NCBI GenBank assembly: GCA_946803715.1
Contig: CAMPET010000006.1
Coordinates: 366,190-392,936 of the forward strand
Length of the DNA: 26,747 nucleotides
Direction: 5' to 3'
Origin: Beroe ovata
Lineage: Eukaryota > Ctenophora > Nuda > Beroida > Beroidae
Under the pieces are notes generated by a model. That model worked only from the letters and a program-made list of their open reading frames with translations. It had not been told where the DNA came from and did not search any database. Shown here piece by piece: positions 6,319 to 19,417 of the stretch (position 1 is its first letter; each line of letters starts with the position of its first letter). The translations under genes were made by a program, and so were the position numbers.

Positions 6319-7035
6319 CTAGTGTCTTCTTTGTCCTACAAGGCGAGTCTCCCGGTGAAAAAGGTTATCTGGGATCGAAATGGTGTCGTCCACCTCCTGC
6401 AAAGCGACTCTCCCGGTGAAAAAGTTATCTGGGATGGAAATGGTGTCTTCTTCATCCTGCAAAGCGACTCTTCCGGTGAAAAGGTTATCTGGAATGGAAA
6501 TGGTGTCTTCTTCATCCTGCAAAGCGAGTCTCCCGGTGAAAAAGTTATCTGGGATCGAAATAGTGTCTTCTTTATCCTGCAAAGCGAGAGTCCTGGTGAA
6601 AAAGTTATCTGGGGTCGGTTTGGTAGAGCCATCACGGAAATCGTCCCTTTCCGTGAAAAATGTTTCTCTCGATTCTTGAAATACGGGCACAAGTCCGATC
6701 CACGCCCCTTCAGACGTCAGTCCGTCGTCAGACCAACCCACCTGAATGTCGAAATTGTCCTCAAACGCCATAATCGTTTTTGTGGCGTCATTTTCCGGAA
6801 TCCAGGAAAGGTTCCAGATTGCCTCATTTGGATCTCTTTCCTTTCTCTCTAGCACAGTTACTTCCTCTTGTTCCATTGATAAACCTGCCTCCAGATCAAG
6901 GAACGCCTCCTTATATAATGCATCCGAGTGCATCATACCGGCCCTATTACCTTTGCAGTAGTACATTGCTGCAAAAATCCCACATAAAATTAGGATGAGT
7001 GCAATTCCTGTTGCAATGAGCCATGTAATGTTCAT
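6319..7035 (-). CDS. Orphan single-pass membrane protein with 20-residue tandem repeats
   Basis: This single-exon 238-aa protein has an N-terminal hydrophobic segment (about 4-26), likely a signal anchor, followed by CKGNR. An acidic region (40-140) follows. The C terminus is built of 20-residue repeats (142-161, 162-181, 182-201, 202-221, partial 222-238) with consensus PDNFFTGRLALQDEEDTISI. They come from a 60-bp tandem repeat at 6322-6612. In the last unit one extra base shifts the frame, giving the end HRETRLVGQRRH. A TATA box lies about 70 bp upstream. I recognise no family. The even spacing and preserved frame over four units argue for a real gene. The plus strand is also open here, but only because of the repeat. 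Confidence 0.6.
   Translation of the reverse strand: MNITWLIATGIALILILCGIFAAMYYCKGNRAGMMHSDALYKEAFLDLEAGLSMEQEEVTVLERKERDPNEAIWNLSWIPENDATKTIMAFEDNFDIQVGWSDDGLTSEGAWIGLVPVFQESRETFFTERDDFRDGSTKPTPDNFFTRTLALQDKEDTISIPDNFFTGRLALQDEEDTISIPDNLFTGRVALQDEEDTISIPDNFFTGRVALQEVDDTISIPDNLFHRETRLVGQRRH
6322..6612. repeat. 60-bp coding tandem repeat (about five units)
   Basis: Units share GGTGAAAAAGTTATCTGGGAT followed by variants of GAAATGGTGTCTTCTTCATC, spaced 60 bp apart. Length stays a multiple of three except for one added base in the copy nearest the stop codon (6357-6371). Confidence 0.9.
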
Positions 7036-13393: not shown

Positions 13394-13529
13394 TACGATG
13401 AGAGAGAGTTAGTTAATTCTCTTTTGACTCTGTTTACAAATGAAAATACGTCTTTTAATTGCAATTAAAAGACGTATTTTCATTTGTAAACAGAGTCAAA
13501 AGAGAATTAACTAACTCTCTCTCATCGTA
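13394..13529. repeat. Perfect 136-bp palindrome
   Basis: Two 68-bp arms meet without spacer at AATTG|CAATT (13461/13462). Every base of the left arm (TACGATGAGAG...) is matched in the right arm (...CTCTCATCGTA). It would form a 68-bp hairpin in RNA or a cruciform in DNA. AGGTACACAAAT occurs on both sides (13341-13352 and 13529-13540). Confidence 0.97.
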
Positions 13530-13854
13530 GGTACACAAATGTTATCAGGATTGGGCTCCCTGATCGCTATTCAATCTAGCCATATCTTATGCATATGCTA
13601 CCTCTATGTCACCGTGTAATATGTGCAGATTATCGAAATCTGCATGAAATGCACAGGTTTACAAAGCCACGAAAGATACAAATAGCCAATCTCTACTTAA
13701 TTATAATAGGGATTCTACCCCAAGCATTTCTATCCCAAAGAATTCCAATTATTGTATATCATCTTTGCTATCTATTTAATCATGTTTGATACATGAATGA
13801 TGTTCCAATAGAATAGAATTTATTCTTATATGCCCTTACTTTTATGATAGTAGA

Positions 13855-14836
13855 ATGGAAAGATCAAGGCCTGGTCTCCCTAAATGTACTCCTAATAACA
13901 TCATATCAATTGACTGTGAGATGGTTGGTTGTGGACAGAAAGGCAGGATAAGTGCTTTAGCTAGATGTAGCATTGTTGACTACTCTGGCAATGTCATATA
14001 TGATAGTTATATAAAGCCAGTCAAACCAGTAACTGACTATAGAACAAAATGGAGTGGAATAAAAAGACACCACCTAATGAATGCAACACCATTTGCTGAG
14101 GCTCGAGAGCTTATCAAGAAACATATATCTGGAAAATATATTGTTGGACATGACTTGAGGAATGATTTTCAAGCAATCAAAATTGTTACACATCCTCTTT
14201 TGGTGAAGGATACCTCAAAATGTCAGGCACTACGTCATATGGCTGGATTACCTGAAAAACAGAAACCTTCTCTTAAAAAATTAACAGGTAATGAATTGTG
14301 AACTTCCTTGATTTGCAACTTCTTGGTAGCAGGAGTATTTAAATTTAGTGTAATTCTATATGAATAGGCATATGTTTTTTGTCAGGATTGATATTAGGAG
14401 AAGTCATCCAATCTTCTTCCCATTCTTCTGTAGAAGATGCTAGAGCAGCAATGATGCTTTACAAGAAAGTTGAAGATGAATGGACTACCTATTCCTCTGG
14501 ATCATTTCAAAAATAACACAAATTTCAATATTGCTGATTTTGATGAAAACGATATTCAAAGGAATAAAAAAGGGAAAATTAATAATATGAATACAGATCG
14601 TAATAATGATAGCTAATATTTGAGATAGATACAGATTCATTGATAATGATATATATGCAATTTTACTTATAATTTCGGCAGGACTGTTGTTTGGAGAAGT
14701 GATTCAGTCATCATCACACTGTTCAGTCCAAGATGCAAGAGCAGCAATGATGCTGTACAGAAAAGCTGAAGACCAATGGGACAATCAATCTAATCCATTT
14801 ATGAATGATCGTTATTGGGAAGCAGTGAATGATTGA
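13855..14836 (+). CDS. ISG20: ISG20-type DEDDh 3'-5' exonuclease with two alternative last exons
   Basis: Exon 1 (13855-14287) carries Exo I (IDCEMVG, Asp20 and Glu22), the family motif TDYRTKWSGI and Exo II (GHDLRNDFQA, Asp104). Its GTAATG donor can join either of two duplicated terminal exons, both in phase 1. Exon 2a (14386-14516) encodes EVIQSSSHSSVEDARAAMML and ends FQK, giving about 187 aa. Exon 2b (14682-14836) encodes EVIQSSSHCSVQDARAAMML and ends AVND, giving about 195 aa. Both contain Exo III with its His and Asp, so each form should be catalytic. Without splicing the frame stops after Gly-Asn-Glu-Leu and would lack Exo III. Human ISG20 (181 aa) degrades single-stranded RNA and DNA; AEN and ISG20L2 are close relatives. 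Subcellular site is not shown by the sequence. Confidence 0.9.
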
Positions 14837-15750
14837 TGTTATCATGATTTTAGCTACAAATAGTTCAGTTTTTTAAACCAACTGGTCCTCATAACTGCAT
14901 AGGTTCATATAAGTTAGAAAACAGCATTCTTATCCTCGCTTAAATGAAAGTTTATCCTCGGTTTTATGATAGACTTCAATTGTGGTAACAGAGTCATCAT
15001 ATTCTTCCACATCATGTGAAACTACACGAATTCTCACGTTTTTTGCCTCAAAATTGAAAATATGCGATCCAATCACACCTTATAGCAGTCACCAGATGCC
15101 ACCGATTTTATACTTTGGTTATGATCGAGGATAAAATTTTGGCCGAATATAATTTTTAGGAGTCCAGGATCGCATATCCTAGATACACCGGTTTTTGCTT
15201 TTAAATTTTAAGTAAGTAGATATCTGCAAAATCGCAATCGATTACCCTATTGTAGGCAGAGTTGAGGGGTCTGGGGGCGCAGCCCTTAGAAACCACACAG
15301 TTTTTTGTATTTAGATCTTGAAGTTTCATTAAATTTCGGTCAAATTATGCATGATCATTATCATAGAAAACAGAGCAGGGTCTGGGGCGCAGCCCCCAGA
15401 AGCCACACGTTTTTAACCAGTCGTTTGACCGAGGATAAGTATAGCTTTCTACCGAGGATTGATTTTCAGATATCCCCGAAAAAATTTATCCTCGGTCTGG
15501 ACCTTATCCTCCCTATGGTAAATAAATTTAATGAAGCGGTGTCACTGGGTGGTGTCAAAAGGCGGTGTCACTGGGCGGTGTCACTGGGCTATACCTAGCT
15601 AAATATAGTTAGCAGTTGATGTAGACTACATGAGAGAGCTCTCAGAAAAGTACAGTTCTATTTATCATATACAGCCATATATACTGTGTATCTACTATGT
15701 ATTTATGATATTTATGATTGTTTTAACTTTTAACTGTTTTATCTTCCAGA
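14837..15750. other. Intergenic with an unclassified repeat-rich element
   Basis: TATCCTCG-type motifs occur in both orientations (near 14931, 14952, 15124, 15430 and 15487). A block GGTCTGGGGGCGCAGCCC with AACCACAC occurs twice (15267-15297 and 15380-15408). A GCGGTGTCACTGGG repeat follows (15536-15589). This looks like a non-coding dispersed element. The open frame at 15305-15598 runs through it and is not supported as a gene. Confidence 0.5.
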
Positions 15751-18535: not shown

Positions 18536-19417
18536 ATGAGTCAGGCTCGGGCACAAGCGTTGTTAGACGAGGCCAATAAGAAGCTATCCACAGGACCAGG
18601 CTTCCTCGGCAAACTCTTTGGTGGCACCTCAAGAAACACTGAGGATGCGATAGATCTATTTGTACAGGCAGCCAACAACTTCAAGATGGCTAAGATGTGG
18701 TGTGAGGCAGGCAACGCTTTCATGAAGGCTGCGTCTCTCAATTCCAGTATCTCTAAACATGAGTCAGCAAGTCAGTATGTGGAGGCAGCCAACTGTTTTA
18801 AGAAGAACAACAAGGAAGAAGCTGTGAAGTGCTTGTCAGAGGCAGTGTTGGTATATGAGGAGTTAGGCAGGTTTAGCATAGCTGCCAAGCATCTCGCATC
18901 GCTGGGGGAATTGTATGAAACGCTGGATGTGCCGGACATTGAACTTGCAGTGGTAAATTATGAGAAGGCGGCTACATACTACGAGGGTGAAGATAGTTTG
19001 AGCAATGCTAACAAGTTTAAATTGAAAGTTGCTCACTATTCCGCTCTGACATTCACCACTGAAGGGTATGAGAAAGCATTGTCGATATACGAGGAAGTCG
19101 CTGGTCACAGTATTTCCAATAATCTTCTCAAGTGGAGTGCCAAGGAGTACTATTTCAAGGCCGTCCTGTGTACCATGTGTCTAAAAGGACCTGTCAGAGA
19201 CCGTATTACACATTACGAAGAGGATTTCCCATCTTTCATCAACTCGAGAGAGCATAAGTTGGTGTGTGCTTTACAGGATGCCATTGACGAGGCTGACCTT
19301 GATGCTTTCAGCCAACTACTTCAGGAATATGATAGCATCAGTCCTCTTGAACCATGGCTTACCAAAATCATGCTGAAAATCAAGAAGTCAATCAATGAAG
19401 ATCCTGACATTTGTTAA
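18536..19417 (+). CDS. NAPA: Alpha-SNAP (soluble NSF attachment protein), intronless coding region
   Basis: The 293-aa protein matches the family length (human alpha-SNAP 295 aa). It starts ARAQALLDEANKKLSTGPGF with the membrane-attachment loop region FLGKLFGG (23-30), followed by TPR-like helical hairpins (AIDLFVQAANNFKMAKMW, AGNAFMKAASL, AANCFKKNNKEEAVKCLSEA, AAKHLASLGELYE, ALSIYEEVA). The C-terminal domain reads LVCALQDAIDEADLDAF and LEPWLTKIMLKIKKSI. Alpha-SNAP links SNARE complexes to NSF so that they are disassembled after membrane fusion. The usual acidic end with a critical penultimate leucine (EEDLR in mammals) is replaced by EDPDIC, which keeps acid residues and has isoleucine in that place. 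Poly(A) signals follow at 19541 and 19795. Confidence 0.95.
   Translation: MSQARAQALLDEANKKLSTGPGFLGKLFGGTSRNTEDAIDLFVQAANNFKMAKMWCEAGNAFMKAASLNSSISKHESASQYVEAANCFKKNNKEEAVKCLSEAVLVYEELGRFSIAAKHLASLGELYETLDVPDIELAVVNYEKAATYYEGEDSLSNANKFKLKVAHYSALTFTTEGYEKALSIYEEVAGHSISNNLLKWSAKEYYFKAVLCTMCLKGPVRDRITHYEEDFPSFINSREHKLVCALQDAIDEADLDAFSQLLQEYDSISPLEPWLTKIMLKIKKSINEDPDIC

Follow-up and report, generated by a model that had tools for sequence, protein, structure and literature searches.

A duplicated last coding exon with Exo III residues in a predicted 3'-5' exonuclease gene of Beroe ovata

The window, meaning the whole 26,747-nucleotide stretch of DNA that was analyzed, appears to contain one AEN/ISG20L2-type 3'-5' exonuclease gene in which the last coding exon is duplicated, such that either a proximal copy (exon A) or a distal copy (exon B) would be chosen and exon A would have its own poly(A) site. 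We put the probability of this reading at roughly 0.72. Exon 1 (13855..14287, forward strand, 433 nt) runs from an ATG to a phase-1 donor and carries Exo I (D20 and E22) and Exo II (GHD at 98-100 and D104). Downstream on the same strand lie a 98-nt GT-AG intron (14288..14385); terminal exon A (14386..14516), with Exo III as HSSVEDA, a derived ten-residue tail TTYSSGSFQK that lacks the sequence [DE]x[FY]W, and its own stop; and terminal exon B (14682..14836), with Exo III as HCSVQDA, a tail ending in NPFMNDRYWEAVND like that of relatives, and its own stop. The borders are GT-AG for both splice options, with the donor CAG/GTAATGA at 14288 and acceptors that read ...TTTTTTGTCAG/GA for exon A and ...AATTTCGGCAG/GA for exon B. 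Exons A and B are thus homologous neighbors that share an acceptor phase and have open frames and separate stops, and joining exon 1 to one or the other gives predicted products of 187 and 195 amino acids, respectively. Splice reconstruction reproduced to the base the coordinates, acceptor phase, stops, and lengths given in an earlier note on this DNA, and it confirmed that the catalytic His and Asp are kept in both exons, as residues 157 and 162 of either product. With DCE at 20-22, GHD at 98-100, and D104 common to both, each product holds the full DEDDh set, as assigned from what we take to be the positions of the Exo I, II, and III motifs. We note that an AG lies directly before the ATG (window positions 13840-13857), with 18 open codons upstream in the same frame, and that use of a second AG at 14366-14367, 18 bases 5' of the exon A acceptor, would bring in six further in-frame codons.

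Both predicted products passed the Pfam RNase_T model over residues 18-170, with 57.4 and 55.9 bits against a cut-off of 24. The best solved relatives of the exon B product were human ISG20L2 (7yw5, 7.7e-48) and human ISG20 (1wlj, 1.6e-35), followed by plant SDN1 (5.6e-18) and then PAN2 (1.3e-9); ISG20L2 and ISG20 were also the top solved proteins for the modelled relative P0002. Moreover, many of the named proteins among the 120 matches listed of 331 found are AEN or ISG20L2. The earlier label "ISG20-type" is therefore fair for the domain, as ISG20L2 and ISG20 are the best solved relatives and the named matches are often AEN or ISG20L2. By these comparisons the gene appears closer to ISG20, AEN, and ISG20L2 than to other DEDDh families, and we place it with the trio and not with one vertebrate gene. 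A protein search of the genome with exon 1 returned three matches, namely, itself and two paralogues, C80 (44%) and C35 (38%), which we take to be REXO4-like and REXO1-like, respectively. Both paralogues sit on long, unsure branches of the tree, and the open frame of C80 includes Exo III as well; a scan with Pfam RNase_T found six matches in the genome, exon 1 and C80 included. No finding of this analysis points to immunity and, to our knowledge, interferon genes are absent from this early-branching animal. The earlier claim that exon choice would give two active nucleases is plausible, and the part of it that stands is that each product is predicted to complete an RNase_T domain with the DEDDh residues. 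We conclude that both products are predicted 3'-5' exonucleases with a complete DEDDh core.

To describe the tails, we define the tail motif as [DE]x[FY]W after Exo III and report its occurrence among the 120 relatives listed of the 331 found. The Exo III pattern is present in 111 of the 120, and the tail motif then follows in 66 of those 111; 23 of the other 45, which have Exo III and no tail motif, are named ISG20L2. When names were counted by hand among the 120, all 14 AEN-named proteins had the motif and 23 of 24 ISG20L2-named proteins lacked it, the exception being the sea-star protein P0056. The sole ISG20-named fish protein among those listed, P0038, has it. The Exo III pattern is missing from nine of the 120 (P0005-P0007, P0009-P0013, and P0119). 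P0119 has a variant Exo III and then the tail motif. The other eight all diverge from the alignment at one shared Leu-Thr/Ser/Ala-Gly/Ser position, after which they stop immediately or continue for no more than about 35 residues; we interpret them as putative unspliced frames that read on into a conserved intron.

A 36-row tree placed both products in a 14-row clade (98/97) together with unnamed relatives and P0099, a row that fills only 44% of the alignment columns. The "sb/" identifier of P0099 is presumably in the style of Pleurobrachia bachei, and from that style the clade is probably ctenophore. All six clade relatives that pass the junction (P0001-P0004, P0008, and P0099) have exon B's tail, with P0003, which lies outside the tree sample, counted with the clade for its 93% likeness to P0002. 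P0115, the row next to the clade in the tree, has no motif and a different, longer tail. Exon A's tail is the end of none of the 120 relatives listed of 331, and a protein search with the exon A region (residues 145-187) gave no candidate; the same search also missed P0001, despite several 5-residue words in common with that region, and is given no weight here. The earlier note had claimed different C-terminal tails, and the tails do differ, but it missed that they are not equivalent, as the tail of exon B is conserved and that of exon A derived. Because the six relatives all have exon B's tail, we conclude that within the 14-row clade exon B is the ancestral exon and exon A the derived copy. 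For the same reason, exon A may be rare, lineage specific, or unused.

Exons A and B resemble each other well beyond chance. In tblastn searches of the window, the exon A peptide matched exon B with 71% identity over 38 amino acids (E of 8.8e-17; 1.1e-14 in reverse), in agreement with the closely matching exon starts noticed earlier, and the likeness is not due to chance because the next-best matches in the window reached only 0.67 for the exon A peptide and 1.1 for the exon B peptide. In a DNA search of the whole genome (77.8 Mb, 534 contigs), exon A matched exon B at 78% over 98/104 bases (E of 1.5e-14). No third copy of the exon was found, either by tblastn in the window or by the exon A DNA search of the 77.8-Mb genome. 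The two introns are unrelated, with a best common match of 9 bases, and a recent duplication was rejected on that ground. The results support an old tandem duplication as the likely origin of the two terminal coding exons.

One way to explain the B-type tails of all six clade relatives past the junction, and the loss of the tail motif from exon A, is that exon A is a relic, a decaying duplicate that has dropped out of splicing, with exon B as the source of the only protein. The divergence between the two copies argues against that explanation. The dN/dS comparison proposed in the earlier note gave, by NG86 alone and over a stretch of only 30 to 36 codons with dS near saturation, values of 0.10/1.58 (30 codons), 0.10/1.83 (33 codons), and 0.16/2.48 (36 codons), a ratio of about 0.06 that indicates codon-level constraint in the core. 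Over 33 codons, the copies differ at 22 nucleotides, 15 of them in third positions, and at 7 amino acids. When 22 changes were placed at random in 20,000 trials, 71% of trials produced a stop and only 1 (5e-5) had as few as 7 amino acid changes. The frame, acceptor, and core residues of exon A are intact despite a dS above 1.5. Moreover, comparison with four relatives assigned two to four of the core changes to exon A and three to exon B, a rate comparison that covers the seven differing residues and excludes exon A's tail, which is wholly changed. Because the two copies carry similar numbers of core changes, exon A does not look like a relic, and we consider decay of an unused exon improbable. 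Few amino acid changes together with unrelated introns fit an old duplication in which both cores were kept as coding sequence, and the earlier proposal of an old duplication kept under selection is supported by the unrelated introns, the ratio of about 0.06, and the single equally conservative outcome in 20,000 random placements. We conclude that the data support both copies as likely coding and under codon-level constraint in the core.

The sequence behind each terminal exon was scanned for poly(A) signals and splice donors. An AATAAA at 14563..14568 (forward strand), 47 bases after exon A's stop, is a candidate signal for polyadenylation of the exon A transcript, and the next AATAAA 3' of exon B, at 15521..15526 on the same strand, is a candidate distal signal; both are consensus matches only. 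An ATTAAA lies between exon B and the latter, at 15328. The same scan found an AATAAA inside exon 1 at 14058, and such matches are therefore not rare here. The only GT between exon A's stop and exon B's acceptor, at 14600, matches 3 of 7 consensus positions, and the real donor matches 5 of 7. Two unused GTs nearby, at 14350 and 14699, match 4 of 7 and, like the hexamer in exon 1, indicate that these scans discriminate poorly.

The GT at 14600 could also serve a different purpose. If it acted as a donor, exon A would be internal and mainly regulatory, a "poison" exon that leads to nonsense-mediated decay, and 83 bases would then separate exon A's stop from the junction. We regard this as very improbable, as the putative donor matches only 3 of 7 positions and codon-level constraint on exon A's protein would be unexpected for a purely regulatory exon. 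The candidate signal 47 bases past exon A's stop, together with the weakness of the only GT before exon B, instead makes choice of the terminal exon coupled to choice of the poly(A) site what seems to be the simplest and likeliest model. In the coupled model, the single donor at 14287/14288 would be spliced to proximal exon A and cleavage would occur at the poly(A) site behind it, giving a 187-amino-acid enzyme without the C-terminal motif. Splicing to distal exon B would instead give the ancestral 195-amino-acid form. Mutual exclusion would require no special machinery, as exon A ends in a stop with no good donor after it. We infer that both junctions are probably used.

As both forms have a complete DEDDh core, they would be expected to differ in the role of the tail, such as partner binding, location, or stability, and not in catalysis. 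In the model of P0002, blocks of residues 51-210 average at least 90, residues 211-220 average 81, and the last 13 residues are at about 55; confidence in the core holds to the end of the Exo III helix (residues 197-210). Judging from this model, which is of a relative and not of the two products, the exon A and exon B forms are probably alike in catalysis, the difference between them lying in a peripheral tail. A role as C-degron for the AEN C terminus was considered and found no support: in the available text of one paper, it is the N terminus of AEN that binds AAMP, and AEN has no C-degron (PMC12871134). Another possibility is that both exons are used and that choosing between them amounts to noise or a minor dosage effect, with the two forms functionally alike and exon A's tail unconstrained. 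Identical DEDDh residues in the two products, a tail region predicted to be peripheral in P0002, and an exon A tail that has no counterpart among the 120 relatives listed of 331 would all fit, but both cores have been maintained for long and at about equal rates, and we give such an inconsequential choice little credence. We favor a role for the tail within the coupled model, and that role is what we infer from the intact core of both forms.

Other features of the window were recorded. Upstream of the gene lies a palindrome that ends 327 bases before the exon 1 ATG; its first 71 bases (13395-13465) are 100% identical to the opposite strand at 13458-13528. With 40 of 128 candidates scored, at least 52 genomic matches to these 71 bases were counted; 32 of them form 16 opposite-strand pairs within 250 bases, and 13395-13528 is a putative MITE-like hairpin element. 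A SNAP-like single-frame gene at 18536-19417 encodes 293 amino acids that are 92% identical to one relative and about 47% identical to the best insect proteins. On the minus strand, the open frame at 6319-7035 contains a repeat resembling "LQDEEDTISIPDNFFTGR" in four to five tandem copies. The GC content of the window is 36 to 44% in 2-kb blocks.

The literature searched contained no paper combining ctenophores with ISG20, and in one ctenophore paper the phrase "mutually exclusive exons" concerns the splitting of annotated genes. Homologous 3'-terminal exons are already a known class. In the available passages on human tandem-exon events, 77 of 236 exchange the C terminus, and the 3' exons of TPM1 are duplicated (PMC9741552), and, in those on human capping protein beta, homologous 3'-terminal exons are accompanied by multiple poly(A) sites (PMC3228551). 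As far as those passages describe them, the gene studied here resembles capping protein beta and TPM1 in that its last coding exon is present in tandem copies, which have separate stops and a common acceptor phase. What differs from that class is that the swapped exon here contributes two catalytic residues to the active site of a nuclease. Catalytic residues inside a swapped exon are less usual: the same passages report that human tandem-exon regions overlap 10.7% of predicted functional residues, with a conserved catalytic arginine of KHK as an example (PMC9741552). The exon pair by itself opens no new class of mechanism, but it would add a case of a duplicated exon with catalytic residues; in that text, human exons of this kind include few predicted functional residues (PMC9741552).

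The gene is like AEN, ISG20L2, and ISG20 in domain, motifs, and fold. Among the 120 relatives listed, exon B's tail is like that of the AEN-named proteins (14 of 14 with the motif) and exon A is like the ISG20L2-named proteins (23 of 24 without it). In those families, motif-bearing and motif-less forms mostly come from different genes, but in this case a single gene could produce the two. Because one gene would then make an enzyme with and without the motif, production of both forms would provide a clean natural experiment on the role of the C-terminal [DE]x[FY]W in AEN-like nucleases. The most far-reaching version, which we hold doubtful, is that in this early-branching animal an exon switch, coupled to poly(A) site choice and running through the active site, lets one nuclease gene make the AEN-like tailed and ISG20L2-like tailless forms that are separate genes in vertebrates.
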